64,000 bases of DNA, taken from positions 2,301,001-2,365,000 of the forward strand of contig NC_007503.1 of the NCBI RefSeq assembly GCF_000012865.1. Reading direction: 5' to 3'. Position 1 is the first letter of the stretch. Each line of letters opens with the position of its first letter. The notes under the pieces were generated by a model. The model was not told where the DNA came from. It made no database searches and saw nothing but the letters and a program-made list of their open reading frames with translations. Of the stretch, positions 35,363 through 63,020 are shown in pieces. This DNA comes from Carboxydothermus hydrogenoformans Z-2901. Lineage in GTDB: Bacteria > Bacillota > Z-2901 > Carboxydothermales > Carboxydothermaceae. A program made the translations under genes and the position numbers.

Positions 35363-35369
35363 CTTCTTC

Positions 35370-35444
35370 TGGAGCGGGAAACGGGATTCGAACCCGCGAC
35401 CCTCGGCTTGGGAAGCCGATGCTCTACCCCTGAGCTACTCCCGC
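35370..35444 (-). tRNA. tRNA-Gly (anticodon CCC)
   Basis: A 75-nt cloverleaf on the minus strand: acceptor GCGGGAG with TTCCCGC, D arm GCTC...GAGC, anticodon stem TCGGC with GCCGA around loop TTCCCAA (anticodon CCC), T arm GCGGG-TTCGAAT-CCCGT, and an encoded CCA. It sits at the change from backbone to island sequence. Confidence 0.97.
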
Positions 35445-35503: not shown

Positions 35504-35701
35504 CTATGTAATTTGATTCTCCACAACGTTGTAAATTCCTTCATATATGCGTAAAAAATTTTTTGCTACTCCATCAAATGATCTATAGCAATAATACCCT
35601 TCAATTCTCATCCATTTGTCCAACATGCATTTTAAACCCTTTTTTGTAAAACTTTTTAAAATTTTTATGTCTCCAACGTATAACAAATCAAATTTTTGCA
35701 T
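35504..35701 (-). CDS. Doubtful small ORF
   Basis: A 65-residue ORF with a weak ribosome site. The product (starting MQKFDLLYVGDIKILK) shows mixed helix potential and no family that I know. It could be real or chance in A+T-rich sequence. I list it only because nothing else occupies 35,450-35,900. Confidence 0.2.
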   Translation of the reverse strand: MQKFDLLYVGDIKILKSFTKKGLKCMLDKWMRIEGYYCYRSFDGVAKNFLRIYEGIYNVVENQIT

Positions 35702-35911
35702 TACCTAATATGTCAAAATATAGCTAAAGCCGAGTGTATAACTTAAATCTTTTACAGGCAAAAGTGTTTCCTTTTGGTCAGCCTCAAAATATGATGGGTA
35801 AGAAAGTAAGATGGTATTTAAACAAACTTTGGATCGTTTTCGTTGTTGAAAATAAAAAAGGGGACTGTCCTAATTCAAACAATCCCCTAAACACGTATTT
35901 AAAAAACCTGG

Positions 35912-36214
35912 TCACGTTTTTACTTCGTCTTTAAAAATTGCATTATTAAGCAAAAATCCTATTTTCAACCCATCTTTAAACCCCTGTTCGTATAAAAAAC
36001 GAAAAACCAAAGCCTCCCTTTGCCCGACTAAGTCTTCATATTTTTCAAGCCACGACTTGTTATTATCAAGGAAACTTGAAAATATTTTTTCACATGCTAT
36101 TTTCACGGAACATGTTAGTTGCTTATATTCCGAAGAAGTTGCAGCAATATGGTTTACAATTTCGTCTACTCTGTCATTTTTATAGTTTTCCAAAGCACTG
36201 TAAATGTCCCTCAA
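35912..36214 (-). CDS. Small helical protein, DUF6809-like
   Basis: A 100-residue helical protein. Start TTG has AAGGAGG nine bases ahead. It ends with FRFLYEQGFKDGLKIGFLL, a pattern (GF.DGLK.G) typical of small phage or plasmid-type proteins such as DUF6809. No DNA-binding motif is apparent. It is the first gene-like feature inside the A+T-rich island. Function unknown. Confidence 0.5.
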   Translation of the reverse strand: MRDIYSALENYKNDRVDEIVNHIAATSSEYKQLTCSVKIACEKIFSSFLDNNKSWLEKYEDLVGQREALVFRFLYEQGFKDGLKIGFLLNNAIFKDEVKT

Positions 36215-36904
36215 AAGATATTCCCTCCTTCATCCTCTTGTAAAAATCAATTATTGTATGTAACCTTAATTAAATCCTTTTCCCTTAATCCCTACAAAAA
36301 ATATGTACGCCGCTACCATAAAATTGTAGCGGCTAATAAATACACCTGCTTTGTCAAGAAAAAGAAGGAGGCAGAAAAAGAAGGGAGAGAATGGGAATAT
36401 CTATAAAACAGCACTTTTAGTGCTGTGGGAACCCCAGCAGGAATCTCAAGAGTTCTTGGTCAAAATGATGAAGGAGTTTTTTAACCCAATTTCTTCTTGA
36501 AAAACTTTTACTTGTAACATCGCCATCATAAACAATGATCCTTTAAAAAGTCAAGAAATTTTTCTTTATATCTTTTCAAACCAAATTTTTTTAAATACAG
36601 GTATATGAATTTCGGCAATGCAAAAAATAGAGTTATGAAAAAATCCAGTAACTTTCCACATTTGCAATTTAAAAAATGGTGGGATTTATCTAAACAAACT
36701 TAATTACACTTTTCACAAAAATGACTTTTTGTCAAAAGCGACCGAGCCCCTTTCCTTCTTTGAGAAATAATATTTATCAAAAGTTATATTTTTCGTTATA
36801 ATTTCTTTTAACAAAATTCGATGCATCATCTATTATAAAACAAAAATAATTGCGAGCTTAGAAGAATTTATCTAAAAAAAATAGAGAGGATAAAGTTTCT
36901 CAGC
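36215..36904. other. Gene-free A+T-rich stretch
   Basis: No ORF that I trust. Two hairpins stand out: GCCGCTAC paired with GTAGCGGC at 36,309-36,333 and AACAGCACT with AGTGCTGT near 36,408-36,426. Remaining sequence looks like decayed non-coding DNA. Confidence 0.4.
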
Positions 36905-37069
36905 CTATATTAACTTTTTTATTTCTTCAATAGAGAGCTTTGTTATCTTAGAAATCTTATCAATGCTTATAATACCTTCTTTCAGCATTTCCTTTGCTAT
37001 TGCAATTTTTTCTTGCTTTGCTCCTTTTTCGATTATTATTTTGTATGTTTCGGATTCTTCAAGAAACAT
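36905..37069 (-). CDS. 54-aa protein resembling the tail of Rpn-type proteins
   Basis: A short helical product with GAGGTGATG ahead of the ATG. The sequence KQEKIAIAKEMLKEG and KISKITKLSIEEIKKL matches the C-terminal tail seen in Rpn/PD-(D/E)XK-type transposase-like proteins (a G.....A...L..G.....I...T.LS..EI pattern). It follows 40 bases after the primase gene remnant on the same strand. It may be a free-standing version of that tail, or a remnant. Confidence 0.5.
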   Translation of the reverse strand: MFLEESETYKIIIEKGAKQEKIAIAKEMLKEGIISIDKISKITKLSIEEIKKLI

Positions 37070-37109
37070 TTTCATCACCTCAATGTAATTTTAACAAAAA
37101 AAGAAACTA

Positions 37110-38480
37110 CTAAACAGCCTCACGATAAACAAGGCTTCTCGCTTCCGTCTCTGTGATGTAAAAATCTTCCATAATCTCATGCACAAGTTTTTCTTTGTCT
37201 ATTTTGCTTTTGTCTGCTTGTATGCTTTCTTTTTTCTTTTCTGCTTCCATTTCTTTCTCTTTTTTTATTTTTCCCGTAACACGAGACAAAAAATATGCGT
37301 TTACTTCATCTCGGAAACTCTTTTCTTGTGTTTTTTGCGTTTCTAGTGTGTCTGAGGCAAGTCCAAACTTTTTGCGGTATGTCTCTATGTCCACCGCCTC
37401 ATCAATCGCATGTTGTATTTTTCTTCTTACAATCTGGTAAAAAGCCGAATCCCGTGGAGCAACCATCTCGCCGAAATCCTTATACCTGTCCTTTTTGTTC
37501 TTCTTTGGATATACTAAAATTTTCACTCTTGAAAAACCAAACTTTTTCATCTTTTCATAAGTTGCAATATTTGCTTTTATTCCATCATCCGTATTATCGT
37601 ATGCTAAAATCATCTCTATATCCTTCCCAAAAACTTCCATTAAGAGTTCCATCTGCCGTTCAGATATAGAATTTCCGAGTGTCGCTACAACCGCAACGTC
37701 ATCGAGACGGTAGCAGTAAACTCGTGCAGCATCCTTCGGGCCCTCGACGATCACGACTTTTTTATATTCATTCGGATTTTTTACATACTTGTAAAGGAGA
37801 TAGAGATTTTCATCGCGTTTAAAACCAACAGTATTAATAATTCTCGATGTCAGCTTTTTCTTCTTATTGTTTTTTTGTTCCTCTGTAATTTCCGAGTTTT
37901 CCCAATACTGTTTTTTCCAAAAATTATCGCCCAAAACCTTATGTTCTCGTTCTTGTTCATCGTCAAAAATGCTCCGTCCCTGCAAGCCAACCACTTTCTC
38001 ATTTATGTCTCTGATGGCGTAAATGACACGATAACGGAAGTCGTTCGATTCGTTGCAATCAGCCGATTCACTCCCGTCTCTGTAATAAATATCACACTCT
38101 TCCATCTCTTGTGCATTAAATCCTAACTTCTCCATATACATACATTTTCCCTTGGCTTCACTTAAGATTTTCTCAACATTCTTCTCGTTTACAAAACCCC
38201 TCAGTACTGTCTTACCCATTATTTTTTGAGTTTCTAAATCTCTTTCTTGCGAATTCTCCTCTAATATTTCCCACACAGTTTCGATATTGTCAACAAAAAG
38301 ATCGGCACATTCTTTCAAAAGCCCCCAAATATCCCCCGTAAAACCACAGCGAAAACAGTTTCCATGCGGCAGGGCATCTTCATTCATAAAAATTGCAAAA
38401 TTTTCGTGTTCACAAATTGGGCAAATATCAAGCTTTACAACATAATCACTAACATCTATAATTTCATACCGTTGCTTTTC
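37110..38480 (-). pseudogene. CHC2-type primase with Toprim domain, 3' part (disrupted)
   Basis: Codons run from the transposon edge to the stop. The first 31 codons (EKQRYEIIDVSDYVV, then CPICEH) lead into MNEDALPHGNCFRCGF, so CPIC plus CFRC form a zinc-binding finger. A Toprim domain follows, with VVIVEGPKDAARVY and LAYDNTDDG. The C-terminus is Lys/Glu-rich and coiled. It would be about 456 residues as it stands, lacking 130 N-terminal residues encoded at 41,585-41,974. Without the transposon it joins into a 586-residue primase. A plasmid or phage replication role is likely. Confidence 0.75.
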
Positions 38481-38554
38481 TGTTTCTACTCACATAAAAT
38501 AACCGTCCAATGCTCAGATTTCGTGGCCAAATAGAAAAGGAATTTGTTTAGATA

Positions 38555-39235
38555 ATGGCGAATAATTGGAGAAAAAATCTAAAGAAGGAGAAAAAGGAAA
38601 AGTCTTCGAGTAAGGTTTACGGAGCTGACACTCCCCTTACCGAAGACTTTCCTCCATACCGTACTTTGATTGTAACTTATCTTGGAGCTTCAGTAAAGGA
38701 GTATTTAGAAAATTACTTAAATTTTTTGGAAGAAAACCAATGGTATTGCCCGGTTTGTAGTGCAAAGATGTCTTTTCACGGATGGTATCGACGAAAAATA
38801 ATAACCTTAGATGGAACTACTACTAGAATTCCAATAGCCCGCTATCGCTGTTCTAACTGCCGGAAAACCCATGCCATTTTACCGGATTTTGTTGCGCCTT
38901 ACCGCCATTATTCCCAGGTTTTGATTGCAGCTGTAGTTGAAGAAGTAGTTTCCAAGCAGGTACCGCCAGAACGGGTCGAGGGCAATCAGGATATTCCCAC
39001 TACTCGGCGATGGATACGCCGATTTCTAAAGCGATGTCATGAGGTTATAGGCGTTTTAGAAAGTATAGCTTTTAGATACACCGGGCAAATAAAATCGCTT
39101 CTAACGGAAGCACGGTCGTCGCCCTGGGAGCAAATGCTTGCGGCTTTAGAACTACTGCCGGCGGTAAAAGCTACTTCGGTGTTTGGTGCGGTAAATCTCT
39201 GGCTGACCATGGACGTGGTCGGCCTCTGGCTTTAA
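38555..39235 (+). CDS. Transposon-encoded zinc-ribbon protein (DUF6431-like)
   Basis: A 226-residue protein. A basic N-terminal tail is followed by a double zinc-ribbon (CPVC at about 68-71, CSNC at 97-100) with a HGWYRRKI motif between, and a helical C-terminus with TTRRWIRRFLKRC that resembles a helix-turn-helix. It is the first gene of the transposon and is regularly found with this DDE/ATPase pair. Role in targeting or end-recognition is plausible but inferred. Confidence 0.6.
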   Translation: MANNWRKNLKKEKKEKSSSKVYGADTPLTEDFPPYRTLIVTYLGASVKEYLENYLNFLEENQWYCPVCSAKMSFHGWYRRKIITLDGTTTRIPIARYRCSNCRKTHAILPDFVAPYRHYSQVLIAAVVEEVVSKQVPPERVEGNQDIPTTRRWIRRFLKRCHEVIGVLESIAFRYTGQIKSLLTEARSSPWEQMLAALELLPAVKATSVFGAVNLWLTMDVVGLWL

Positions 39236-39323
39236 CTAATTTCACATAGTTTGGTCTCCTGGCCATTCTTGGGATTGTGGTATGGTGAATTTAACACCAT
39301 ATTTAAACAAGGAGATGGTCAGG

Positions 39324-40661
39324 TTGCCAAAGGAATTATCTTATCAGCAAGAAATTGCTCTTAAACGTTTTGCTCTGATAGCACCTTTGCTGGAGCCGGA
39401 TTTAGAAGCGGCGGAAAAGCGCCAACGCCGGAAAGAAATCTTAGCCAGGAGTGAAATTTCCTCCCGTACCCTGCGCCGCTACTTACAACTTTACCGCCAG
39501 CAGGGTTTATCCGGTCTTATGCCAAAAATCCGGTCTGATAATGGAAGCAGTCGTACTATAAGCCATGAAATAATCGAAGAGGCGGTAAAACTTAAGGAAG
39601 AACTTCCGGAACGGAGTGTAAGCCAAATCATAGCGATTTTAGAAGGAGAAAAGAAAGTTCCTGCAGGAATGTTAGCCCGGTCTACCCTTGGAAGGCATCT
39701 TTCTCGTTTAGGCCTAACCCAAAAGGAAGCTAACCAAAAGATATCAGGGCACAGGCGTTTTGCAAAAGAACAGCGTAATCGCCTCTGGCAAGCAGATATC
39801 AAATATGGGCCGTATCTACCGCATCCAAAGAATCCCAAACGCAAAGTGCGAACTTATTTAGTGGCATTTATCGATGATGCTACTCGTCTTCTTTGTCATG
39901 GAGAGTTTTATCTTGACCAGAAGAGGCCAGTTTTAGAAGATTGTTTTCGTAAAGCCATCTTGAAACGAGGAATCCCGGATGCGGTATATGTAGATAATGG
40001 CAAGATTTTTGTTTCCCGCTGGTTTCGTTTGGGATGTGCCAGGCTGGGGATAAGGCCAATTAATACTAAGCCATATTCACCTGAATCTAAGGGGAAAATT
40101 GAAAGGTTTAACCGCACCGTTGAGTCTTTTATAGCCGAAATAGAACTGCAACAACCTGAGACCCTGGCAGAACTTAACCAGGCTTTTGCTGTTTGGGTTG
40201 AAGAAGGTTATAACCACCACCCGCACAGCTCTTTAGAAAACGAAACTCCGGCTAACCGTTTCCAGAAGGATACCCGGCGTTTACGGTTTGCCAGCCTGGA
40301 AGAATGTCGGGAAGCTTTCCTCTGGGAAGCAAGTCGTCGGGTAGATAAAACAGGATGTATCAAACTTGAAGGACGGTTTTATGAAATTGGTTTGGAATGG
40401 ATACGAAAAACCGTTGATCTCCGTTACGACCCTTTTGACTTAGAAAGTATCGAGTTCTGGTATAACGGCCAAAAGCAGGGACTGGCCAAGCCTTTGGTTA
40501 TCCAGGAATACAACAACCTTGCTGCAAAAAATAAAAAAGAGCAAGAAAATAAAACACCAAAAACTTCCCGCCTCTTAACAGTACTTGAAGAAAGAAGTAT
40601 TGAACGCCGCCGGCGAAAATTAGGGGCCATACCCTTCCGCCAGCTGGAAGGGGGTAAGTAA
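39324..40661 (+). CDS. DDE (rve-type) transposase
   Basis: A 445-residue integrase-like transposase. N-terminal HTH domains (about 10-140, with SSRTLRRYLQLYRQQG), then the RNase-H catalytic core: ADIKYGPYL gives the first Asp, YVDNGKIF the second and SKGKIERFNRTVESF the Glu. The C-terminal beta domain resembles Mu-type transposases. I start at TTG 39,324 because GGAG lies nine bases ahead; an ATG at 39,315 is close by. It ends two bases before the ATPase start codon region. Confidence 0.85.
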   Translation: MPKELSYQQEIALKRFALIAPLLEPDLEAAEKRQRRKEILARSEISSRTLRRYLQLYRQQGLSGLMPKIRSDNGSSRTISHEIIEEAVKLKEELPERSVSQIIAILEGEKKVPAGMLARSTLGRHLSRLGLTQKEANQKISGHRRFAKEQRNRLWQADIKYGPYLPHPKNPKRKVRTYLVAFIDDATRLLCHGEFYLDQKRPVLEDCFRKAILKRGIPDAVYVDNGKIFVSRWFRLGCARLGIRPINTKPYSPESKGKIERFNRTVESFIAEIELQQPETLAELNQAFAVWVEEGYNHHPHSSLENETPANRFQKDTRRLRFASLEECREAFLWEASRRVDKTGCIKLEGRFYEIGLEWIRKTVDLRYDPFDLESIEFWYNGQKQGLAKPLVIQEYNNLAAKNKKEQENKTPKTSRLLTVLEERSIERRRRKLGAIPFRQLEGGK

Positions 40662-40663
40662 AA

Positions 40664-41467
40664 ATGTTTGAACACTTTTTTGGTTTTCACCGCACCCCCT
40701 TCGGGAGGGATCTGCCGGTAAACTCTTTGTTTACCACTCCTGCCCATGAAGAGCTGGTATCCAGGCTTAAATATGCAGCGGAAAAACGCCTCTTTGCCCT
40801 AATTACCGGCGAAGTAGGAGCAGGTAAGTCCACAGCATTACGGCAACTATTATCGCTATTAAACCCCAATAAGTACCGGGTTATTTATATTAGCGATTCT
40901 GGTCTAACTCCCAGGCATTTTTACTGGGAAGCCCTGCGGCAGCTTGACTGTGAGCCACGCTTTAACCGGGGACAGGCTAAACGTCAGCTGCATCAGGTTA
41001 TCCTTGACTTAGCAGAAAATCAACAGAAAATACCGGTAGTTATTGTGGATGAAGCTCATCTCCTTGACCGGGAAATGCTTGAAGAAATACGCTTTCTTTT
41101 GAATTTTCGCATGGATTCGTATAATCCAATGAGTCTAATTCTGGTAGGTCAGCCAGAACTGCGCCGTATCTTACAACTTCAGGTTTATGAAGCTATTGCT
41201 CAGAGGATTAACCTTCGCTACCACCTTCCGCCCATGGAACGGGAGGAAGCAAAAGGCTATGTGGCCCACCATCTCAGGACAGCCGGGGCAAGTTCAGCAA
41301 TTTTTACCGATGATGCCTTGGATATGGTCTATGAGTATGCTGGGGGTATTGCCCGGAAAATCAATAACCTGTGCATTGCTTGTCTAATGGCAGCTGCAGC
41401 CGAACAGAAACGGCTTATTGATGACCGTATGGTCAAGGTAGTAATTGAAAATGAATTTTCTGTATAA
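40664..41467 (+). CDS. ExeA/TniB-type AAA+ ATPase of the transposon
   Basis: A 267-residue ATPase. Walker A GEVGAGKST (about residues 46-54) and Walker B VVIVDEAH (near 125-132), followed by a sensor region VGQPELRRIL. It starts FEHFFGFHRTPFGRD, typical of the ExeA family that serves as target-selection partner of DDE transposases, as TniB/IstB do. GAAGGGGG lies ahead of the ATG. Confidence 0.85.
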   Translation: MFEHFFGFHRTPFGRDLPVNSLFTTPAHEELVSRLKYAAEKRLFALITGEVGAGKSTALRQLLSLLNPNKYRVIYISDSGLTPRHFYWEALRQLDCEPRFNRGQAKRQLHQVILDLAENQQKIPVVIVDEAHLLDREMLEEIRFLLNFRMDSYNPMSLILVGQPELRRILQLQVYEAIAQRINLRYHLPPMEREEAKGYVAHHLRTAGASSAIFTDDALDMVYEYAGGIARKINNLCIACLMAAAAEQKRLIDDRMVKVVIENEFSV

Positions 41468-41578
41468 AATTATGTCAATGGCCAGGCAGTATAAAAAACT
41501 GCCTGGCCAAATAAAGTGAGCAATATTTGCGGCCACTTAATTTGAGCTAAATGTGGTCAATTAGTGTGAGCGGTAACA

Positions 41579-41974
41579 CTTTTCAAAAATCTTTGCAATT
41601 CTTTCAGTGTTCCATTTTGCGTCTAAAATTTCTTTTTTTATTTTTGCAAGTAGAAATTTTTTTGAAAACAACAGAGCAAAATTCACAATATCATCCATTT
41701 CTATGTCATTTGATAAAAAGTTTTTTAGTTGCTTATACGTTTCGTAATCAGCTTTGTAAAAAATCGGATTCCATAAATAACCATCTTTTTGATTTACTGA
41801 CTGTTTATAATTAAAGTGTCGTAATTGCTTCCAGTCTGCGTTTCGTAAAGCGTTTTGAATAGCTTCTTCGATAATGTCTTGAAAAGTCTTTTTTGTTTCA
41901 ACTATTTCATTATAGCGTGATAAAATCTCGTTGTATTCTTTGTATAAATTTTGTATAATTTTCATTGAGCACAT
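41579..41974 (-). pseudogene. CHC2-type primase, 5' part (disrupted)
   Basis: Codons 1-130 of the interrupted primase gene. Start ATG 41,974 has AAAGGAG four bases ahead; a further ATG at 41,965 is three codons in. The product is helical (KIIQNLYKEYNEILSRYN, then LAKIKKEILDAKWNTERIAKIFEK). The final codons GAAAAG coincide with the 6-bp target duplication. As now sequenced the frame continues four codons into the transposon (CYRSH) and stops. Confidence 0.75.
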
Positions 41975-42133
41975 CACTCTCCTTTGATTAGGTTTCTTAT
42001 TCTCCTTTTTTTGAGTGGTATGTACAAGGGAATAACTGGGAAACATGAAACGCAACAAAAAAATTTTCTGTAACGGGAAGAATTCCCGCTTTTTTTGTTT
42101 AGGTATGTCAGCCCGCCGTTAAGCGGGCAGTTT

Positions 42134-42256
42134 TTATTCTCGTAAACTTTCAAAAGTTTCTACAAGCTCCGTAATGTCGTGCAAAGACTTTACGTCAAGT
42201 ATAAACGGCATTTTTTCTACGCAAATATTGTAAGAAATATCTTCATATAAAATCAA
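42134..42256 (-). CDS. 40-aa ORF coupled to the first RHH gene
   Basis: It starts with TTG, two bases after the RHH stop codon, with GGAG of the RHH end acting as ribosome site. The product (ILYEDISYNICVEKMPF then DVKSLHDITELVETF) is acidic and partly helical. A hairpin GCCCGC...GCGGGC lies just downstream. The BREX-linked RHH copy has no equivalent; brxA follows there. Confidence 0.4.
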   Translation of the reverse strand: MILYEDISYNICVEKMPFILDVKSLHDITELVETFESLRE

Positions 42257-42259
42257 ATT

Positions 42260-42568
42260 TTACTCCGACTTTTTAAAAAAATAAGTATACAAAATATTTC
42301 TCACCAGACGTGAGACAGACATCAAATGTTTCTGAGCAAGGTCTTGCAGTTTCTCCAACTCTTCATCCGTCACTTTTGCAACTATTTTGTGCCCTTTTGC
42401 CGTGGTAAAAGTGTAATCATTTCTGATTTCCGTGCTGTAGTCAAATTGTTCAAACAGTATCCAAAGCATAACTTTTGTTATCGTCATACCAGTTTCCTCC
42501 GAGAGTTCGCGCAATCTCTGAAAAGTCCGCTCCGAAACTACCGTCCAAAACTGCTTTTGTTTTCTCAT
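42260..42568 (-). CDS. Tandem ribbon-helix-helix DNA-binding protein, copy 1
   Basis: A 102-residue protein built from two RHH-like halves. The first is a strand FWTVVSERTF plus two helices; the second is a strand IVAKVTDEELEKL with helices LAQKHLMSVSRLVRNILYTYF, a clear CopG/Arc-like unit. About 38 percent of 93 aligned positions are identical to the protein at 60,978. The ATG at 42,568 has GCGAGGTGG ahead, matching the leader of the second copy. It is divergent from the FW microprotein gene 163 bp away. Probably a repressor of the intervening promoters. Confidence 0.7.
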   Translation of the reverse strand: MRKQKQFWTVVSERTFQRLRELSEETGMTITKVMLWILFEQFDYSTEIRNDYTFTTAKGHKIVAKVTDEELEKLQDLAQKHLMSVSRLVRNILYTYFFKKSE

Positions 42569-42658
42569 ACAGACCACCTCGCTTTTAATTCTCTACAAAC
42601 ATAATAGAAAAATATTCATGTTTGAGTCAAGTTTTTATTTAATATTTTTTTGCAAATA

Positions 42659-42687
42659 TTGTCAAGTTGCAAAAAATATGATATGAT
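42659..42687 (+). promoter_or_regulatory. Predicted promoter of FW microprotein 1
   Basis: TTGTCA and TATGAT separated by 17 bases, ending 44 bases before the start codon. It lies in the short divergent region shared with the RHH gene. Confidence 0.6.
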
Positions 42688-42731
42688 GTAGCTAAGAATG
42701 ATGAGTAAGACTCTGAAAGGAGCTGGTAAGA

Positions 42732-42938
42732 ATGGTAGTTTTCGAAAAATTCGTATCCTCGAAGAGAGGGACGTTCTGGATATACGTAGTTAGGCACAGT
42801 TTTTGGAAAGCAGAAGTAGTGCTGCAGGTTCCGCACTGGTACGGTAAGAAAACAGTTTGGCGCAAAATCTTTTTCTTCCCATTTGCAGCACCACTTATTA
42901 CAATTTCTGCACGGCTTGCTGAGGCATTCACGGTATAA
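42732..42938 (+). CDS. FW-rich microprotein, copy 1
   Basis: A 68-residue protein with AAAGGAG nine bases ahead of its ATG, its own predicted promoter and a perfect terminator after. It is rich in Phe, Trp, Val and Arg: RGTFWIYVVRHSFWKAEV, VP, FFFPF and a final RLAEAF. The same motifs (RG.FWI.V.R..FW..EV...VP ... FF.PF ... RLAEAF) recur in the protein at 62,043. Basic, no signal peptide. Not a family that I recognise. Confidence 0.7.
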   Translation: MVVFEKFVSSKRGTFWIYVVRHSFWKAEVVLQVPHWYGKKTVWRKIFFFPFAAPLITISARLAEAFTV

Positions 42939-42942
42939 AAAC

Positions 42943-42978
42943 GAAAGCCCCGAAAAAATCGGGGCTTCTTTGCTTTTT
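42943..42978. terminator. Shared terminator after FW microprotein 1
   Basis: AAGCCCCGA pairs with TCGGGGCTT across an A-rich loop, followed by CTTTGCTTTTT. It also lies at the end of the 33-residue minus-strand ORF. Confidence 0.9.
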
Positions 42979-43078
42979 ACATAGCACTTTTGAGTCCTCT
43001 ACTACGTTTCTCTTGAATTTTTCGCTTTAAGACTCTTAGTCTATGCCTTTTAAAAACGTGCTTTATTACCTCAACCAT
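42977..43078 (-). CDS. Basic 33-aa ORF
   Basis: A Lys/Arg-rich product (VIKHVFKRHRLRVLKRK and on) with AAGG four bases ahead of the ATG. It follows the broken ORF at 43,100 by 22 bases and runs into the shared terminator. Small basic proteins may bind nucleic acid; function unknown. Confidence 0.4.
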   Translation of the reverse strand: MVEVIKHVFKRHRLRVLKRKIQEKRSRGLKSAM

Positions 43079-43099
43079 GCAACCTTGTCCGTGAAGATT

Positions 43100-43336
43100 T
43101 TAAGGTTTTACAAACTCTTCCGCTGTTTTTGCCAATTCTTCGTTTCTGCCTTCATGTATCAAAACCATACTCCCAGCAGTGCTGTTGCAGATCGAGACGA
43201 AATAGTCCGCTCCACAGTCTTTACCGTCTTGTACCTGTCTGAGAAAGATTTAGTCTTTGGAATCTTCCTTTGACATTAAGTTTTTCACACCACTTTCAAC
43301 ATCATCAAAATGGTTTGTTATATTTTCGGCCAGCAT
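43100..43336 (-). pseudogene. Small gene with in-frame TAA
   Basis: Two open segments lie in the same frame: MLAENITNHFDDVESG up to a TAA at 43,250-43,252, then IFLRQVQDGKDCGADYF to a second TAA. GAGGAG six bases ahead of the ATG supports a former gene of about 78 codons. No family recognised. A point mutation to a stop is the simplest reading; sequencing error is possible. Confidence 0.45.
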
Positions 43337-43614
43337 CAGCATCTCCTCGCTCTATCTTTGCCATACATTAATGCGAGAAATAAAGCAATATCAAATAGCT
43401 AATTTAACGCTAAGCTTAGCTCCAAAATTGCATTAGTTCAAAAACTGCAAAGCAAAATATTCAAAAACGGGGGAATTCCCTGGGAAGTTTTTTCTGCTAT
43501 AGCTTATTATACTTTTGTTACGCCTTTGAAAATTATGTTTTTTGAAAATTTGGCTTTTGTTCAAATCCCCTGAGATTCCCCCGTTGTAGAAAATTTTTTT
43601 TACGTCATCCTTGT

Positions 43615-43810
43615 GTTGTAAGCTCAAGTTGAAAAGCTCAAGCAAATGGATTAAACTAATCTCCTAAGTTTGTTTATAAAGTTTTATAAGCAAACTTAGG
43701 AGATTGGCTACTCTACTCCTTTATGGCTCAAGCTAATGGCTTAGGCTAAATGCTAAAGCTAAAATCTTAAGCTTTTGGCTTAAGCTAAAAGTAATGTTGA
43801 AGCTCGCTTT
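43615..43810. repeat. AAGCT-rich iteron-like repeats and a 48-bp palindrome
   Basis: Two or more copies of AAGCTCAAG, several of GGCTTA or TAAGCTAAA, and TTAAGCTTTTGGCTTAAG sit within 200 bp. In the middle, 43,658-43,680 and 43,683-43,705 are inverted with 22 of 23 positions paired and only two bases between them. The rest of 42,980-43,980 has only the small ORFs listed. The layout resembles a replication origin or partition site. Confidence 0.6.
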
Positions 43811-43854
43811 TGTTTTTTTCTTCTCATGATCAGTTTCTTATCTCATTTTTCTAG

Positions 43855-43886
43855 TAAAAAAAAGAAAGGGGATCTATTCCCCTTTT
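43855..43886 (-). terminator. Terminator below the helicase transcript
   Basis: AAAGGGGAT pairs with ATTCCCCTTT; the minus strand continues into a T-run (CTTTTTTTTA). It lies about 100 bases past the 50-codon ORF. Confidence 0.65.
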
Positions 43887-43981
43887 AAACGATCAATTTC
43901 TGTTTCTGCCGTTTCAGGTCAAGTTCATTAAAAACCTTGACATGTAGGCTTTATAAAATGCTTTTTCATTTTTGCTTTCTT

Positions 43982-44134
43982 TCATTCTCTTTCATAAGTT
44001 GGCAAATAAAACTTCAGCGTAAAGTTGACAATATCGGAAGCATCTGCTTTCCTATCCGAAAACCACTCGAGATTAAAGTGAATATCTGGTATATTTATTT
44101 TAACGACATCATCATCTTTTATAATTGATACCAC
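43982..44134 (-). CDS. 50-codon ORF after the helicase gene
   Basis: GTG start 15 bases after the helicase stop, with only a weak purine-rich site. The product (VVKINIPDIHFNLEWF, then DIVNFTLKFYLPTYERE) looks protein-like. Frames after its stop continue as EKAFYKAY and ELDLKRQKQK in shifted frames, so this may be the front part of a frameshifted gene. Confidence 0.35.
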   Translation of the reverse strand: MVSIIKDDDVVKINIPDIHFNLEWFSDRKADASDIVNFTLKFYLPTYERE

Positions 44135-44148
44135 TTTTCTTTATATCT

Positions 44149-46068
44149 TTAAACCTGCCTTTTTTGAAGGTGATGATATTTCTCTTCAATATTCATTTTT
44201 TTCATTAAATTTTTTACATATCCAATTTTCAAGTGGTTCGCAAGCGTATCCTGGTCTGTATATCCCAGCGCCTCACGAACCTCTTTTTTTGTAATAATGC
44301 TTTTTTGAGAAAACTGCGTTTTTAGAAACTCACCCAGCTGTAGAACTTTTTTGTTGCGTTTGCTGCCGTGTGTTAAGTAATGCTTATAGAATTCCTCAGG
44401 ATACCATGTTTCAATCTTGGCATTGGGGAAATATGTTGTTAGAAGTTCAAGCAGTACAGGTTCTCCAATAAAGCTGTAAATCTGAACCTGTTCATTTGTT
44501 GACTTCCTCAGCGCGGTCCTGCAAAAGTTCTGGATCATCTCTGTGAAAAGGTCACTTTCGATGACCCGTTTCACTTTTTCAGCAAGTACTACTGCTTTAT
44601 CATCCGCACTGCTTAAATCGTCGAAATCCTGTTTGTTGCTAACTGATACGGCCTTGGCAAGATAGTATTCATCACCTTTATGGTTAATGCCAATATTTAG
44701 CATGACCGTACAGTTAGCATAAATATTTTTGCCTTTAATATTGTTAAAGTGGTCAATGTAAACACGGTTGTTTTTGTAAAACATGGTATCCATCAGTTCT
44801 TTTTTGATGGTATTAACGAGTTTTTGATAGGTTAAAATAAACACTTCTTTATCCTTAATTCCCTCCAAATCCTGAAACAGCTTCTTGAAATCAAACCTCG
44901 CACTGCTTTTTTTGCTGAAAATGTTTGTACGGCTCAAATTTACAGGGCAGTTGTAAATGGTAAGATTATCGTAGTTTCGAATCTGAGGCAAATCCAATAT
45001 TGCAAACTGCCCTTCTTTGTACTCGGCGTCATATTTTGCCGTGGCATCAAAGATAATCGTCTTTAATCCGTCCAATTTGGCAAATTCAATGTAATCCGTA
45101 GTAATAGCTTGGGCTTCCAAGCCGATTTTTGTTTCTTCGGCGCGCAGAATACCGCCTTTTCTGATAAGACTTGCAATGCACTCGAGTATTTCGACATCGT
45201 TTTCTGTATATGCTTCTTCAAAAAAACTCTTGAACTTATCAGACAGCTTAAAACATGGTTCTAAGGCTGACAAAAACGGGCTTGTAAAATCAAGGTCATT
45301 TAATACAGTATTGAGCTTTTTCAAGTGGCTCATAAGGTGCTGAGCTTCTTCATACAGTTCTGATCCTGGCTGTATATAGCGTATAACTTCGTATGCCTTC
45401 CTTATGTCCTTTCTATTTACAGGCTTATTAATTGCCAGCGGTGGTTTTTCGTCAATGATAAGGATGTTTCGCTTGTGCTCAATCCCATCCTTATCGCAGA
45501 ATGCCAAAAAATCTCTGAGGTGCCGTCCATAGAGCATTTCCAATCGGAATCTCTCACTGCTCATCAAAAGCACAGGATAATTTTTCTGCTCGCTAACGGC
45601 TTTTTTCATCCTGCAATCGGCGTCGCAGTTTCTGCATGCTATCCGCTGATATTCTTTGTAACCCTGCAGGCAGTGGTCGGGATAAAAGCTGTACACAGCC
45701 CTGGCTTTTCCTTTCAGCTTTTCTTCGAGGGCTAAAATATCCTTAATCCTTTCTTTAACGACTATAGCGCCAAAATTATTAAAATCATCGTCAAGTTTTA
45801 ATCTTAGAAACTCTTCTATCATTGTTGACTTGCCGAGTCCCGTTTCCATTGGAACAACTACTGGTTTGCTGGAATCAATTAAGGGGAAAAGGAGAATCTT
45901 TGCGACTGTCCTTAACTGGCCGTAGTGTTCAAGGCTAACAGTTCCTCCATATGCTTTTATCTTAACCATCACAGCCATGGCTAATTTACTGGCTTCAAAA
46001 GAATCTTTAGGATAACAAATTTCATTGTATTTATAAAGCCGATGTTGAAAGGGCTGAATTTTTCCCAT
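44149..46068 (-). CDS. P-loop helicase-like ATPase of the island
   Basis: A 639-residue protein. Walker A in PMETGLGKST (about residues 73-82), a CxxC-type cluster CRNCDADC (near 145-152) as in FeS- or zinc-bearing helicases, and a DEKPP box (near 206-210) in place of DEAD/DEAH. The latter part has a helicase-2-like region (FILTYQKLVNTIKK, then RTALRKS). Its small C-terminal domain has KKEVREALGYTDQDTL, a winged-helix look. With the primase it suggests the replication module of an integrated plasmid. Confidence 0.55.
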   Translation of the reverse strand: MGKIQPFQHRLYKYNEICYPKDSFEASKLAMAVMVKIKAYGGTVSLEHYGQLRTVAKILLFPLIDSSKPVVVPMETGLGKSTMIEEFLRLKLDDDFNNFGAIVVKERIKDILALEEKLKGKARAVYSFYPDHCLQGYKEYQRIACRNCDADCRMKKAVSEQKNYPVLLMSSERFRLEMLYGRHLRDFLAFCDKDGIEHKRNILIIDEKPPLAINKPVNRKDIRKAYEVIRYIQPGSELYEEAQHLMSHLKKLNTVLNDLDFTSPFLSALEPCFKLSDKFKSFFEEAYTENDVEILECIASLIRKGGILRAEETKIGLEAQAITTDYIEFAKLDGLKTIIFDATAKYDAEYKEGQFAILDLPQIRNYDNLTIYNCPVNLSRTNIFSKKSSARFDFKKLFQDLEGIKDKEVFILTYQKLVNTIKKELMDTMFYKNNRVYIDHFNNIKGKNIYANCTVMLNIGINHKGDEYYLAKAVSVSNKQDFDDLSSADDKAVVLAEKVKRVIESDLFTEMIQNFCRTALRKSTNEQVQIYSFIGEPVLLELLTTYFPNAKIETWYPEEFYKHYLTHGSKRNKKVLQLGEFLKTQFSQKSIITKKEVREALGYTDQDTLANHLKIGYVKNLMKKMNIEEKYHHLQKRQV

Positions 46069-46205
46069 ATGCTGTATGAATCCCCTCCCTTCTGTGGAAT
46101 TCTTTTATCATTTTAGAACATTGAGAGGCTTAAACTCAAATTTTACTCCCCCCATTGTTGTTAATTTTTTTAGAAACAGATTCTGTAGATAATAACGAAT
46201 GAAAA

Positions 46206-46236
46206 ATAAAAAAGCAACTATCTTTTTGATAGTTGC
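46206..46236 (-). terminator. Terminator after the DUF7662-like relic
   Basis: GCAACTATC pairs with GATAGTTGC around TTTTT; the minus strand continues with six T. It separates the helicase gene from the relic upstream. Confidence 0.75.
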
Positions 46237-46243
46237 GTAAATA

Positions 46244-47821: not shown

Positions 47822-49852
47822 CTATTCCACTCCCAAAGCCTTGAATACCGCATCTTCGGGCGACTGGTAAAAAGATATCTGAAACTTGGCAAACAGTTCT
47901 GGCGGAACAGTAGCGATGTCAGTAGCCGAAGACATTGGCATTAAGACTTTTTTTGCTCCTGCGTCGAAACATACCTGCAGCACATTGGCCAGTTCTTCGA
48001 CTTTATTTATGGTACCACCAATACTCATTGAGCCTAAAATAACCATCTGACTCTGGCAGGGCCTGTCCAATGCACCTGAACACAAAGCAACAAATGCAGC
48101 AAGCGAAAGTTCGGATGTAAGCCCTACCCCATTAATATCTTCCACATGCATAAGGTAATCCTTTGTAGTAGTACTTATACTTCCGCTTATTTTCTTGCTG
48201 TTTGCCCTGAAAAATCTGAAAGCCGTTTCAATCGCCTCTTTAGCCTCTCTGTCTGAACCAAGACCTGTCTTTTCAAATTTTCCGCTTCCACTTACAACCT
48301 GTGTTTCAATCTTATATACCCCAATCATACCTGTTCTGCCACGTGCAACAGTATAGACATGACCTGGCTTCCCCAGCCCCTCGGGAATAATCTTGTCACC
48401 CCCTTGTTCAGGAACAGAAACAAACTGCTCATTCATAGTTTCATTGTCAATATATGAGAAGTGGACATCGTAAAACTCCATCCCGCCAATTTTCTTAAGC
48501 TGTTCTTTTACTCTTCTTCTGCCAATAAGTGCATACCTTAATATTTCTTCAATATCATCTTTGTCGAATTCTCCATTGGGGTAAATAAGCTTTACAAGTC
48601 CCGACACAGTTTTTCTTACCGCAATAACATCCCTCTGATTAAGGTTGTTCCCAAGCTTAAAATACCTGTCAAACGCATCGGAAAAAGAACGCTTCCTCAT
48701 CTCGCGAAGAAATTCTGCCAAATAATCTGTAATGAATCCATACTCATCTGTGAAGAATTCTGGCCTGAATTTTGGAATCTCCCATCCAGGCAAATAATAA
48801 TGTATTCTATCAAAAAAAGCAGTATCATTAGCTATTGCTTCAGGGAATGGTTCAAACAAATGAGAAGTTTTTAGTAGTGCATCAACACTCTGGTTTATAT
48901 TGCCTATAAACACCATTGAAGCTGTTGCGGCTTTTTCCTCTTTTCCTCGAGCAAATGACCCTGAGGCCATATAGTCTTTCATTATTTGTATCGCGTCTTT
49001 ATCTTTAAAGGAAATACCCGCCACCTCATCAAAAGCTACGCAATCCCAAAGTCCTACAAGGCCTATCTGTCTTGAAGCCATATTGTAAAATAAATTAGCT
49101 ACCGTTGTCTGCCCACCCGAAACCAAAATGCTGTTTGGAGATATCTCTTTATAAATATGAGATTTTCCCGTTCCCCTTGGCCCAAGTTCGCAAAGGTTGT
49201 AATTATTTTCTACAAGGGGAACCATTCTCTCTAACATATGCCATTTAACGTTGTTGGACAATTTTGTCGGCTCTAAACCGATCGACCTTATAAGAACATC
49301 AATCCATTCATCCTTTGTAAAGTGCCTTCTGCCGACCATTATTTCTTCAAGTTCTAAGTTCGGCAACTGTATAGGAGTAAGAGAGTTTATGCAAAAAGGA
49401 CTTGAACCCTTTTGTTCTTCATCAAAATAATAATCCATCTTGATGATGCACCAAATACCACCAGCTAAAAGCCTCTCATAATTCTTCACATACGAGGAAG
49501 GCATAACAACTCCCTTAATCCCAAGATTAGAAAATTCGGCTTCATATACGTCTTTCTTTTCATTGAGTTTCACCGTTACCCTGTCGATAATGGTATACCT
49601 GCCATGCTCTCGGATTTTTGACTTAACCTTCTCCGCCTCATCGGGCCTAACAAAGTTCTCTGCAAGTATGCTTTTGACCCTTTCAACTCCTTCACGTATG
49701 CTGTCCTCATCCTCGGTGGCACAATACATTCCCAGGAGGTATTCAAGGACATATACAGGCACATTAGCGCCTTCCTTGATCTTTTTCGTCAGGTCTTTTC
49801 TTACCACTCTGCCAGCAAAATGCTGATTCAATTTTGCACTTAATTCATCCAT
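47822..49852 (-). CDS. brxL: BREX protein BrxL, Lon-like AAA+ protease
   Basis: A 676-residue protein. Walker A LGPRGTGKSH (about 223-232), Walker B VAFDEVAG (near 272-279), and a C-terminal Lon-type domain with GLTSELSLAAF (Ser position) and AGAKKVLMPMSS (Lys position). Marks type 1 BREX. Its start is 17 bases from the pglZ stop. BrxL is needed for phage exclusion but not for methylation in studied systems. A SIR2-like gene follows in the same direction. Confidence 0.93.
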   Translation of the reverse strand: MDELSAKLNQHFAGRVVRKDLTKKIKEGANVPVYVLEYLLGMYCATEDEDSIREGVERVKSILAENFVRPDEAEKVKSKIREHGRYTIIDRVTVKLNEKKDVYEAEFSNLGIKGVVMPSSYVKNYERLLAGGIWCIIKMDYYFDEEQKGSSPFCINSLTPIQLPNLELEEIMVGRRHFTKDEWIDVLIRSIGLEPTKLSNNVKWHMLERMVPLVENNYNLCELGPRGTGKSHIYKEISPNSILVSGGQTTVANLFYNMASRQIGLVGLWDCVAFDEVAGISFKDKDAIQIMKDYMASGSFARGKEEKAATASMVFIGNINQSVDALLKTSHLFEPFPEAIANDTAFFDRIHYYLPGWEIPKFRPEFFTDEYGFITDYLAEFLREMRKRSFSDAFDRYFKLGNNLNQRDVIAVRKTVSGLVKLIYPNGEFDKDDIEEILRYALIGRRRVKEQLKKIGGMEFYDVHFSYIDNETMNEQFVSVPEQGGDKIIPEGLGKPGHVYTVARGRTGMIGVYKIETQVVSGSGKFEKTGLGSDREAKEAIETAFRFFRANSKKISGSISTTTKDYLMHVEDINGVGLTSELSLAAFVALCSGALDRPCQSQMVILGSMSIGGTINKVEELANVLQVCFDAGAKKVLMPMSSATDIATVPPELFAKFQISFYQSPEDAVFKALGVE

Positions 49853-49869
49853 TCTATCACCGCCTCATT

Positions 49870-52428
49870 TTAAAACCCAAAATCTTCATTGGTAATTGCA
49901 AGATCAATGGTAAAAGGTATCCTGTCATAGATGTTCTCTACCGTTTCTTCTTCATCTTCCAGGATAAGATAATATTTTTTCGTTTTATCATACTTCATGT
50001 TCTTCAGCACAAATTTTTCTCTAAATTTTCTTTCTTCAGGATTCTCTGATTTACTGTCAGCAATAATAATATTTTCGTTTGAAACTCTGTTGCCGTCTTC
50101 ATCAGCAAAATAAACCTTCAGTCTGCACGGCACCATTTTATCGCCTACCTTTTCGGTTTGGAAAAACTCAAGGTAGGTGATTGTGTTTGTTATTTTTCTT
50201 GTAAGGCTTAACAGGGTAACCCGAACCTTCTGAACATCTTTTGCGGACTTTCCGCGCTCATTCTTAAAATATATAACTGGTATCACTATTTCCTGTAGAG
50301 ATGAACCCCCATGTACATAATTTGCACCAGCACCTTTTAATTCGAATCTGTTTGTGCTCCGAGGAGTAATGCATTTAAGCTGTGTAGCCTCTCCTAAAAG
50401 ATACTTCATATCAAATGATAATGTGCCTTCTATTTCCATAGGCTTATCAGTTAAGATAAACCTTCTGTTTTCGTACGCATCTTCAATCTTATCCATGGAA
50501 GTTTTTTCACTCTTCTCTACACTACCACGCTTGTAGACAAAGCCATGGTCTGAAATTATATAAATATGGGTTGCGGAAAGATGATTTACAAGGTTGTTGA
50601 CAAGGGACTTCAGCTGTTCAAAAGCTTCTGCCACCGCATCAAAAACTTCCCTTTCGGTCAGATAGTGATCACCTCTAGCGTCAATGCTGTTGTGATAAAT
50701 ATAGATCAGTTCTTTTCCACCCAGAAGCTTTCGCAAATCATCCCTGCGCAGGTCAATGATATCTTTATACTGGACTGCTATGCTTTTATTCACATGATTT
50801 TGCAATATCATGTTTCGGTTATCGGTACCCTCAACAGAAATACCGTCAACAAAAACCTCATAATCGGAATCTATCTCTATTTTTTTATGCGGCAGCAGCG
50901 CAGCCATTCCAAGTTTTGTATAAGAGGGGAGCACCCCCTGCATAGCCGAAATTTCCGTGGTTCCCCTTCTTTCAGTGTTCAGCATTTCTGCCAATTCCCT
51001 TCCAGCTTCAAACCGCAGGGCATCGGAGATAATTACAAATACCCGTTCTCCCTTATTAAGATGCGGTTTGATCTTCTCACGGAAAAATTCCCATTGACAT
51101 GGGACAGAACTAATACTCCAGTATTCCTGCAGTGTTTCGATACTGTTGCTCCATTTGATTGAAAGGATATTAATAAAACCATTTATATAGGTGTTTTCTA
51201 TCTTTTCTTTAAGGGCGGCAAACCATTCTTTGTTATCCAATCTGTCAAAGAAATAGATAAACTTTCTGTAAGCCATGTCAACCTTGTAATATTCTTCCGT
51301 ATACTTCTTGAAGAAATCATGTGGGGGGTATTCTTTGATGGTATCCTTCTGGTTTTTCCATTCCTCAAGTAATACGCAGGCCCAGTAAAGAGCATTATAT
51401 TCGTTCTCATAGTCCTCGAACCAGTGCTTTGATCTTCTATCCATTATTATCTCTTTGTACCTGTCAAACTCGCCGACATCAGAAAGCAGGTTGTCAAGAA
51501 TATTTTGGATTATACCCTCATCAAATAAGCGGAAGATATCGCTGTCTTTATAGCTGTCAACATCCCATTTCGTGATATACTCTTTAAGCCTGATCTTCTC
51601 CTCCACCATTTGGGAAAGAAGCCTGAATGCCTTTTTAGTGCTGTTTCCTCCCATAAAATGGCTTAAGAATACAACCACATTGGTTTGCTTTGGTGACACA
51701 AAGGGCTCCCACTGTTTGGGCAGATCTCTCTTTAGAGAGAATGCCAACCCAGTTATCAGGAGAAAAATTGAAAGCTTCTCCAGGTCTTTTTGTTCCAGAT
51801 TATAGCCATAGTACTTCCTGACAAGCTCCCAAAAAGCATTTATATCTCCAAATTTTATGATGTTTTCATAGAGAGTCGACTCACCATACGCATACTCCGC
51901 AAGCAGGGTTTTCAGTACTTCTTCCAAATCGGGATAGGGCAGCTTGCAGAGGACCGACAGTACGGCAATATCCAGGATTTCTTCGGTATAGGAAGATAAG
52001 GCATATTCCTTGAATGCTCTATACCTTTCCTTGTTGTTGAAAAATTTCAGGTACTTTTTGAAAGCATCGTGCAGGGAATAATCAGTAACATTGAGATCCA
52101 TCATGATGATTGTAGCTCTATCGGTAGAAAATTCAAAGCTGTATTTTTGGATATCCAAAAGGTAATTCTCCCGAGCTTTCGGTTTGCTGTAAGGAGCATA
52201 AATAAGATAGTTGCTTTCTTTGTCCACCCGCTCAAGAATGTATTTTACATAAAAGCTATTCCTGCCATTAAGTTTAAGTATTTTAGCATTGGAAAGATTA
52301 AGAGCATCGATATCCTCTTTGAATTCTCCATTATCGTCGTACCAGAAAACAATATTCCTCTTCCTGCCGTCCGTAAGCTCTTTATTTAAAATTTCTTCAA
52401 GTTTCTTTTTAACCTCATTAAGTTCCAT
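49870..52428 (-). CDS. pglZ: BREX protein PglZ, alkaline-phosphatase-superfamily
   Basis: An 852-residue protein with the PglZ domain: VIISDALRFEAGRELAE (about 465-481), IYHNSIDARGD (near 577-587) and IISDHGF (624-630). These Asp/His residues form the metal site expected in the phosphatase-like fold. The N-terminal half is helical. It lies between pglX and brxL, gaps 18 and 17 bases. PglZ is a core subunit of all BREX types. Confidence 0.95.
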   Translation of the reverse strand: MELNEVKKKLEEILNKELTDGRKRNIVFWYDDNGEFKEDIDALNLSNAKILKLNGRNSFYVKYILERVDKESNYLIYAPYSKPKARENYLLDIQKYSFEFSTDRATIIMMDLNVTDYSLHDAFKKYLKFFNNKERYRAFKEYALSSYTEEILDIAVLSVLCKLPYPDLEEVLKTLLAEYAYGESTLYENIIKFGDINAFWELVRKYYGYNLEQKDLEKLSIFLLITGLAFSLKRDLPKQWEPFVSPKQTNVVVFLSHFMGGNSTKKAFRLLSQMVEEKIRLKEYITKWDVDSYKDSDIFRLFDEGIIQNILDNLLSDVGEFDRYKEIIMDRRSKHWFEDYENEYNALYWACVLLEEWKNQKDTIKEYPPHDFFKKYTEEYYKVDMAYRKFIYFFDRLDNKEWFAALKEKIENTYINGFINILSIKWSNSIETLQEYWSISSVPCQWEFFREKIKPHLNKGERVFVIISDALRFEAGRELAEMLNTERRGTTEISAMQGVLPSYTKLGMAALLPHKKIEIDSDYEVFVDGISVEGTDNRNMILQNHVNKSIAVQYKDIIDLRRDDLRKLLGGKELIYIYHNSIDARGDHYLTEREVFDAVAEAFEQLKSLVNNLVNHLSATHIYIISDHGFVYKRGSVEKSEKTSMDKIEDAYENRRFILTDKPMEIEGTLSFDMKYLLGEATQLKCITPRSTNRFELKGAGANYVHGGSSLQEIVIPVIYFKNERGKSAKDVQKVRVTLLSLTRKITNTITYLEFFQTEKVGDKMVPCRLKVYFADEDGNRVSNENIIIADSKSENPEERKFREKFVLKNMKYDKTKKYYLILEDEEETVENIYDRIPFTIDLAITNEDFGF

Positions 52429-52446
52429 ATTAAACCACCATCACTG

Positions 52447-56082: not shown

Positions 56083-56096
56083 TCCCTTATGAATAA

Positions 56097-59660: not shown

Positions 59661-59684
59661 ATCTTTACTCCCCTCGCTTCTCTT

Positions 59685-60293: not shown

Positions 60294-60300
60294 AAAAGCA

Positions 60301-62892: not shown

Positions 62893-63020
62893 TATGAATT
62901 TTGATGGGCAATTTCTATTTATAACCTCACTTCTCTTGAGTAAAATTTGACTTTAATTACCCGTTTTAGGTAATATGGGAACGAATAATTACTTTAGTAT
63001 AGCAAAGGAGTGTGATCAAG

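Follow-up and report, generated by a model that had tools for sequence, protein, structure and literature searches.

A repeat cluster in a tRNA-Gly island

The window, that is, the whole stretch of 64,000 nucleotides analysed here, comes from the genome of Carboxydothermus hydrogenoformans Z-2901 (a single contig of 2,401,520 bases). It enters an island of ~31.6 kb that lies between two copies of tRNA-Gly(CCC), carries a replication module and a BREX operon, and has a tyrosine recombinase gene just inside its far tRNA-Gly copy. In the congeners G001 and G002, a single tRNA-Gly is followed directly by DNA that is located far downstream in this genome. Since tRNA-Gly is duplicated here and single in both sisters, the repeat cluster described below sits in an integrated island that is absent from both of them. 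The features on its side of the island are the following.

35369 to 35444, minus strand: attL copy of tRNA-Gly(CCC); the attR copy is beyond the window, equivalent to 66949-67024
37110 to 38387, minus strand: primase, C-terminal part (Toprim), from a profile match and the Thermoanaerobacter wiegelii alignment
38480 to 41579, plus strand: transposon inside the primase gene, with DUF6431, rve/Mu-C transposase and AAA ATPase
41561 to 42058, minus strand: primase, N-terminal part, cut by the transposon near 41579; matches the N-terminal part of the intact T. wiegelii primase
42260 to 42577, minus strand: RHH1, a predicted tandem ribbon-helix-helix (RHH) protein and proposed array binder, from an AlphaFold2 model and fold matches
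42601 to 42630, minus strand: promoter-like site of RHH1, TTGACT-18-TATTAT, a consensus match only
42732 to 42938, plus strand: small gene, 68 aa, divergent from RHH1, with homologues in other cassettes
43454 to 43597, no strand: larger inverted repeat in a conserved non-coding block, arms 43454-43485 and 43566-43597
43615 to 43657, minus strand: two degenerate units on the far side of the palindrome, with AAGCTCAAG at 43620 and 43634
43658 to 43705, no strand: 48-bp palindrome, near-perfect, arms pairing at 22/23 positions
43723 to 43788, minus strand: 13-bp tandem array, five units around the dyad GCTTAAGC, consensus on this strand near WTTAGCTTAAGCC, from Tandem Repeats Finder and resamples
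43982 to 44134, minus strand: 50-aa remnant of a gene that in T. wiegelii is complete, at 371 aa (L008 9936-11051); ~730 bp are absent here
44149 to 46068, minus strand: helicase-like protein, 639 aa, with a 94% identical homologue in T. wiegelii

An earlier note had reported a repeat cluster at 43615-43810, next to a helicase and a primase remnant. The cluster was present there, beyond chance, with the helicase-like gene on one side and the transposon-split primase on the other. The helicase-like protein had no Pfam family of its own above cut-off, and its structure model was too poor for use (pLDDT 42.7). Its relatives were found in 2/398, 1/24 and 2/397 genomes, in overlapping sets that count the own or query genome. 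No helicase, primase or RHH relatives were confirmed in viral contigs; plasmids yielded neither helicase nor primase relatives, and phages no helicase relatives. The transposase of the transposon has a second, 100% identical copy in the genome at C1:1113321, and GAAAAG occurs at both transposon junctions. As the primase and the 371-aa gene are broken in this genome, the array is probably a relic as regards replication.

It is period and organisation, not word counts, that set the cluster apart. The spacing periodicity that the earlier note had proposed to check took the form of a 13-bp period with five tandem units (Tandem Repeats Finder, 5.1 copies at 43723-43788). On the minus strand, the units read TTTAGCTTAAGCC, AAAAGCTTAAGAT, TTTAGCTTTAGCA, TTTAGCCTAAGCC and ATTAGCTTGAGCC, and the dyad GCTTAAGC spans 8 bp. 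In the 1210-bp intergenic region, 0/1000 resamples matched the period-13 score of the array at any period from 5 to 30, and 0/1000 matched its chain of five GCTTAAGC-like dyads; these and all other resamples given below (both arrays, the T. wiegelii array and the CGTTTTTAAAAACG counts) were drawn from first-order Markov models rather than being exact shuffles. Across the window as a whole, every top period-13 window fell in the cluster, while 122 of 63,900 windows matched the score of the array at one period or another between 5 and 30, other repeats accounting for most of those listed.

The abundance of short words claimed for the cluster was borne out on the forward strand but was less striking with both strands counted. 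AAGCT occurs seven times and GCTNAA eight times on the forward strand of 43615-43810, and such counts were reached in 1/6381 and 3/6381 windows of 196 bp, all at the cluster. At least eight AAGCT/AGCTT on both strands were found in 9/6381 windows, eight of them at 33761-33831 and two of those with nine; at least three AGCTAA/TTAGCT, the cluster's own count, were found in 58/6381. Regarding longer words, TTAAGCTTTTGGCTTAAG is present exactly at 43767-43784, and AAGCTCAAG (two copies) and TAAGCTAAA (one copy) are rarer than had been implied. The second dense place, 33761-33831, is as dense in AAGCT/AGCTT as the cluster or denser and is partly an AGCTTT hexamer run within a reading frame. A perfect 21-bp tandem repeat (3.2 copies) lies at 35030-35097, within a short coiled-coil-like reading frame.

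An Rfam scan of the window gave a tRNA as the sole match, and thus no structured RNA at the cluster. The genome holds no second copy of the cluster, the other match being that of the palindrome with itself. In a DNA search of 101 genomes, the own one included, none matched the array as a whole, and weak short matches occurred in five others (best E 0.0046). The GCTTAAGC triple pattern was not found in viral contigs.

The same module in Thermoanaerobacter wiegelii

Positions 35688-46240 of the window correspond to ~7.8 kb in T. wiegelii, most aligned pieces being 84 to 96% identical, with one small piece at 79% and a reverse match of the palindrome at 82%. A similar primase-helicase pair beside the array, which the earlier note had suggested looking for, is thus found there: the genes are the same, and the primase is intact (615 aa). 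The ~420 bp at 36677-37096 have no T. wiegelii counterpart and hold a 57-aa frame with a sub-cut-off resolvase-type HTH match.

The array is kept in T. wiegelii at 65/73 positions over 43723-43795 (89%), and it is periodic there too, with 3.7 copies of 13 bp according to Tandem Repeats Finder. Its chain of four dyads was matched in 0/1000 resamples, and in 2/1000 with any period from 5 to 30 allowed. The palindrome is identical at 42/48 positions, its arms pairing at only 17/23 there, and the block at 43454-43597 at 128/144, with 14 of the remaining positions forming one gap. The arms of the inverted repeat in this block contain GGGGGAAT, and the repeat is almost identical in the two hosts despite being non-coding. 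The degenerate copies are poorly kept (23/45 over 43613-43657, with a 10-base gap), and the three stretches beside array and palindrome, this one included, are identical at 8/17, 23/45 and 7/15 positions (47 to 51%). Three other nearby stretches are well kept (50/59, 66/70 and 108/120). Between the window and T. wiegelii, identity at four-fold degenerate sites is 86 to 94% for three genes, so the array, at 89%, is not kept better than such sites.

A possibility was that the cluster is a functionless degenerate repeat tract, spread by slippage and visible only because the transfer between hosts was recent. The identity of the array, similar to that of four-fold sites, agrees with this, as does the lack of the GCTTAAGC motif in the other two RHH1-clade cassettes (see below). 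Yet the array and the palindrome stand at 88 to 89% where three neighbouring stretches stand at 47 to 51%, and six genomes have arrays upstream of their RHH2-clade genes. We therefore regard this explanation as very unlikely indeed.

The position of the array between helicase-like and primase genes in two hosts also bears on the proposal that it was the replication origin of a former element. The 13-bp units would then be iterons bound by the helicase, by a primase partner or by RHH1, the palindrome and the larger inverted repeat would help opening or priming, and replication would start here after excision. Consistent with this, the array, the palindrome and the 144-bp inverted-repeat block are kept in a non-coding stretch. 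Moreover, the helicase-like protein is distantly related to the helicase part of a 1030-aa protein in G324 (L017 3340-6432) that also has a weak CHC2-type zinc finger match. The gene for this protein lies near a tyrosine-recombinase-like gene, and the two intergenic stretches examined in G324 held no array comparable to the cluster. On the other side, profile scans recognised no initiator family, and the block has no exact DnaA box, one-mismatch matches being found at 42790, 43281 and 43671. Typical iteron plasmids have longer iterons, unlike the short dyads and the pitches of 10 and 13 bp here. Arrays of other sequence, furthermore, precede defence operons. Altogether we consider an origin unlikely, although far from negligible.

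In T. wiegelii the module, array included, sits with Tn7-type genes. TnsD- and TniB-type genes are found near the modules in T. wiegelii and in G276, with TnsA- and TnsB-type genes also in T. wiegelii. The glmS gene, which is the usual Tn7 site, lies beside the T. wiegelii island (L063, L064, L067), beside the G276 island (L053, L050, L054) and beside an RHH pseudogene in G813. From their gene content, the T. wiegelii and G276 carriers look like Tn7-like islands with defence operons.

Ribbon-helix-helix genes and their arrays

The earlier note had pointed to RHH proteins as candidate binders of the cluster, and such a protein, RHH1, is indeed encoded ~1 kb from the array. Its AlphaFold2 model (mean pLDDT 83; E3-9 H11-24 H28-40 and E57-64 H66-78 H83-99) predicts two RHH (beta-alpha-alpha) motifs in one chain. 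The top Foldseek match was AvtR of a lipothrixvirus at E 1.9e-3, and nothing was found at E 0.001 or better; the Z scores given here come from a second aligner (VIA). The latter gave Z 12.0 for AvtR (87 residues, 1.9 A), 10.6 for a chain of the F plasmid relaxosome, which we take to be TraY, and 9.0 for a permuted single-chain Arc; the match to DndE, at Z 5.7, was lower than that to TraY-type chains. MetJ and ParR were not among the fold matches listed, which excludes nothing. Sequence profiles gave sub-threshold matches only, to a NikA-like family (E 3.8e-5, below its cut-off) and to RHH_3. An alignment of RHH proteins gave one weak match among solved structures, to an entry named anti-CRISPR protein (E 0.0097), in the second RHH unit.

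These matches raised the possibility of an oriT or relaxosome site, wherein RHH1 would be a TraY/NikA-like accessory protein and the palindromes would mark the nick region for a relaxase acting in trans. F-relaxosome chains among the best fold matches, the NikA-like profile match under its cut-off and the inverted repeats adjoining the array are in line with it. However, the best fold match of RHH1 is a transcription regulator, AvtR; Pfam profiles recognised no relaxase among the island proteins scanned, a subset of the reading frames; and the paralogous RHH2 cassettes described next head defence operons. An oriT appeared very improbable on these grounds.

A paralogue of RHH1, with a second array upstream of it, heads the BREX operon of the island.

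47822 to 60951, minus strand: BREX operon BrxL, PglZ, PglX, BrxC, BrxB, BrxA (PADLOC profiles)
60978 to 61418, minus strand: RHH2, paralogue of RHH1 (41/103 identities, E 2e-25), first gene of the BREX operon
61705 to 61770, no strand: second array, seven ATTAAT-like palindromes at 10-bp pitch (0/500 resamples; Tandem Repeats Finder 61705-61750)
62043 to 62249, plus strand: small-gene homologue of 69 aa, beyond the second array (tblastn E 1.5e-13)

RHH relatives were found in 8/398 genomes of a phylum set and in 6/37, 4/26 and 1/22 of class sets, which overlap and count the own genome. In a tree of 13 proteins, RHH1 and RHH2 fell into two separate groups, which mostly have different arrays; the details of this tree are unsure because of its long branches. 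G026 (a far relative with no ATTAAT chain), G813 (a pseudogene) and G837 (a fragment) were left out of it.

ATTAAT arrays were found upstream of six of the nine RHH2-clade genes, those of the window, G276, G225, G060, G047 and T. wiegelii. In the first five, the array starts 416 to 634 bp upstream of RHH2 (0/500 resamples each), the window and G276 arrays being nearly the same sequence and hence not independent. An array had been expected beforehand in T. wiegelii: there was none within 1500 bp, a stretch occupied by a transposase-like gene, which accounts for its absence there, and seven copies lay ~2 kb upstream, beyond that gene and farther away than predicted. No ATTAAT array was found upstream of the RHH2-clade genes of G383 (1500 bp) and G829 (801 bp), and the G380 contig ends 400 bp upstream of its gene. 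The G813 pseudogene and the G837 fragment had no array either. A scan of 359,078 bases, partly overlapping and selected mostly because of their RHH genes, gave five distinct chains of at least four ATTAAT boxes, each of them upstream of an RHH gene. Two viral contigs that carry five exact ATTAAT boxes were discarded as candidates, having no RHH1, RHH2 or small-gene relative at E 1e-3.

The operons behind RHH2 were of different types. BREX follows it in the window and in G380, where PglZ and BrxC were confirmed; type I restriction in G276, G225 and G047; and DUF499/DUF3780/DUF1156/PLD-helicase in G060 and T. wiegelii. Behind the array-less RHH2-clade gene of G829 is a type III methyltransferase gene. 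Arrays thus occur also at paralogous RHH genes heading defence operons, indicating that they track the RHH gene rather than replication. This weakened the earlier step from repeat density and placement to an origin or centromere.

A centromere would require RHH1 to act as a centromere-binding protein on a parS-like array in partition. RHH centromere proteins do bind short repeat arrays, as omega of pSM19035 does (PMC5016525), and repeats upstream of an RHH gene are a feature of type Ib partition loci that is present here. Against it, Pfam profiles recognised no motor of the ParA, ParM or TubZ type among the island proteins scanned (a subset of reading frames), the module is chromosomal in both hosts, and the RHH2 arrays precede defence operons. 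A centromere is quite improbable. Among the readings proposed earlier, RHH binding of the array fares best, a former origin is possible and a centromere unlikely.

As to the RHH1 clade, the conservation that the earlier note had looked to was only partial. The GCTTAAGC array is kept in T. wiegelii but is missing beside the two further genes, so that two of four, the window and T. wiegelii, have it. The G276 gene has an 8-bp WTTGTAGT repeat at the corresponding position, which could be chance. In G844, an ATTAAT array lies 946 bp upstream of the gene, flanked by the small gene and by a DUF499 gene that is 79% identical to that of G060; this array may belong to the neighbouring DUF499 operon. 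In both G276 and G844, DNA similarity to the window spans RHH1 to the small gene and stops short of the array.

The small gene is found with both groups. With RHH2 it has homologues in the window, T. wiegelii, G276 (split in two), G047 and, as a weak match, G060; with RHH1, in G276 and G844. The copy beside T. wiegelii RHH1 gives matches in two frames, and the G225 stretch gave none.

Arrays as candidate operators

The reading that we favour, with slightly better than even confidence, is that the cluster is an RHH-bound operator array controlling the modules of the element. We infer that RHH1 binds the array, cooperatively, and controls the module. The array would consist of binding sites for RHH1. 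A single RHH1 chain, being predicted to take the fold of an RHH dimer, would cover one of the 8-bp dyads GCTTAAGC. Cooperative binding along the five units, spaced at 13 bp, would assemble a nucleoprotein block. This block would switch the replication module of the element (helicase, 371-aa protein and primase), and RHH2 with its own ATTAAT-box array would similarly switch the defence operon.

Several results support this operator model: the 13-bp array is beyond chance, T. wiegelii has a copy of it beside the same RHH gene, and array and palindrome are better kept than three flanking stretches. The predicted tandem RHH fold, whose closest matches are DNA binders of the single-chain RHH type, points the same way, as do the ATTAAT arrays upstream of six of the nine RHH2-clade genes, and we also count in its favour that small-gene homologues accompany both the RHH1 and the RHH2 groups. 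Other results speak against it: two of the four RHH1-clade genes have no GCTTAAGC array, the RHH2-clade genes of G383 and G829 showed none of the ATTAAT type, the T. wiegelii RHH2 array is not where it was predicted, the identity of the GCTTAAGC array is not above that of four-fold sites, its degenerate copies are poorly kept, and other nearby stretches are equally kept. The arrays are also far for a simple repressor. In five loci, 274 to 525 bp separate the RHH2 array from a conserved promoter-like site downstream of it, directly ahead of the gene. This distance weakens a simple repressor model and suggests long-range action or action on the divergently oriented small gene. The RHH1 array lies ~1.1 kb from the promoter-like site of RHH1 and just downstream of a terminator-like site on the helicase side, which leaves room for an origin function of this particular copy.

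A broader proposal, which we advance tentatively and with somewhat less than even confidence, is that of a transferable control cassette, made of a tandem RHH protein, its 68-aa partner and a palindrome array, that is reused in Firmicutes islands. One copy would govern the replication module, and a second one the carried defence (BREX, type I restriction or DUF499/DUF1156). Each RHH lineage would have its own array sequence and pitch, an RHH filament would let the array act from a distance, and the 68-aa protein may be the switch. What is new here is the recurrence of an RHH-array cassette ahead of different defence operons.

Parts of this model have precedents. The arrays bound by omega are built of a 7-bp unit. 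According to the available text on omega of pSM19035, this RHH protein binds arrays of 7 to 10 iterons overlapping promoters, fills parS arrays cooperatively and, as proposed for the cassette, acts as one protein on short-repeat arrays at promoters of several functions of its element (PMC5016525). Omega, however, is a one-motif RHH dimer that works alongside a motor protein in partition, and its arrays overlap promoters (PMC5016525); no such feature was found here. RptR also fills its repeats cooperatively, and it resembles the cassette in several ways: the protein is small, binds DNA and is the product of the first gene of a defence operon, its direct repeats contain a 6-bp palindrome, and it is strongly linked to type I restriction (PMC12255303). 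HTH regulators are the comparison drawn for RptR in that text, where the term ribbon-helix-helix does not occur, whereas a tandem RHH is predicted here; its 9-bp TAGCTA repeats overlap the promoter -10 box, whereas the arrays here have 10- or 13-bp units and end hundreds of bp upstream. On this description, RptR and the RHH cassette differ in array motif and place (PMC12255303). BrxR, as far as the excerpt at hand describes it, is likewise a defence-island regulator, associated with several defence types, that binds repeats upstream of its own genes, but it is a wHTH-WYL protein whose two sites consist of paired 11-bp inverted repeats, the first of them lying right after the promoter (PMC9122601).

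Concerning the protein itself, AvtR (PDB 4hv0) is the closest solved fold to RHH1 and, on the part of its record available, a transcription regulator of a thermophile's mobile element; it shares 18% sequence identity with RHH1 and is viral and archaeal. DndE and TraY carry two RHH units in one chain, as predicted for RHH1, and their monomers are equivalent to RHH dimers; in the accessible text, DndE acts in phosphorothioate modification and TraY in plasmid transfer (PMC10853773).

Among the titles listed for RHH proteins with BREX, with defence islands or restriction, or with DUF499/DUF1156, mostly outside subscription journals, none was on a tandem RHH regulator with such arrays. The words RHH, ribbon and MetJ are absent from the available text of a 2026 BREX survey (PMC12839542), and a search for literature joining C. 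hydrogenoformans and BREX found nothing. The silencing of costly defence systems in mobile islands is still poorly understood, and the regulators BrxR and RptR are not described as RHH proteins in the texts available (PMC9122601, PMC12255303). A tandem RHH protein with matching arrays before different defence types, in Tn7-type as well as tRNA islands, would provide a simple and testable model, in which what looked like an old origin becomes a member of a family of regulatory cassettes.

A few further observations concern the intergenic parts and neighbours of the cassettes. Palindromes resembling CGTTTTTAAAAACG recur in cassette intergenic parts, at 61635, 61898 and 62313 in the window and in L050, L051, L053, L067 and L074. 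Taken as a dispersed signal they were rejected, the seven in the window comparing with 1 to 7 in five resamples, that is, not above chance. The reading frame at 62461-62892 encodes a 143-aa protein of no Pfam family, and a similar protein is encoded upstream of the G276 RHH2 (L050 18578-19009). Near cassettes, at 63012-63314 and at L067 1256-1663, there are genes for proteins of the 23S rRNA intervening-sequence family, and protein starts resembling this family occur in L047, L051, L054 and L074.
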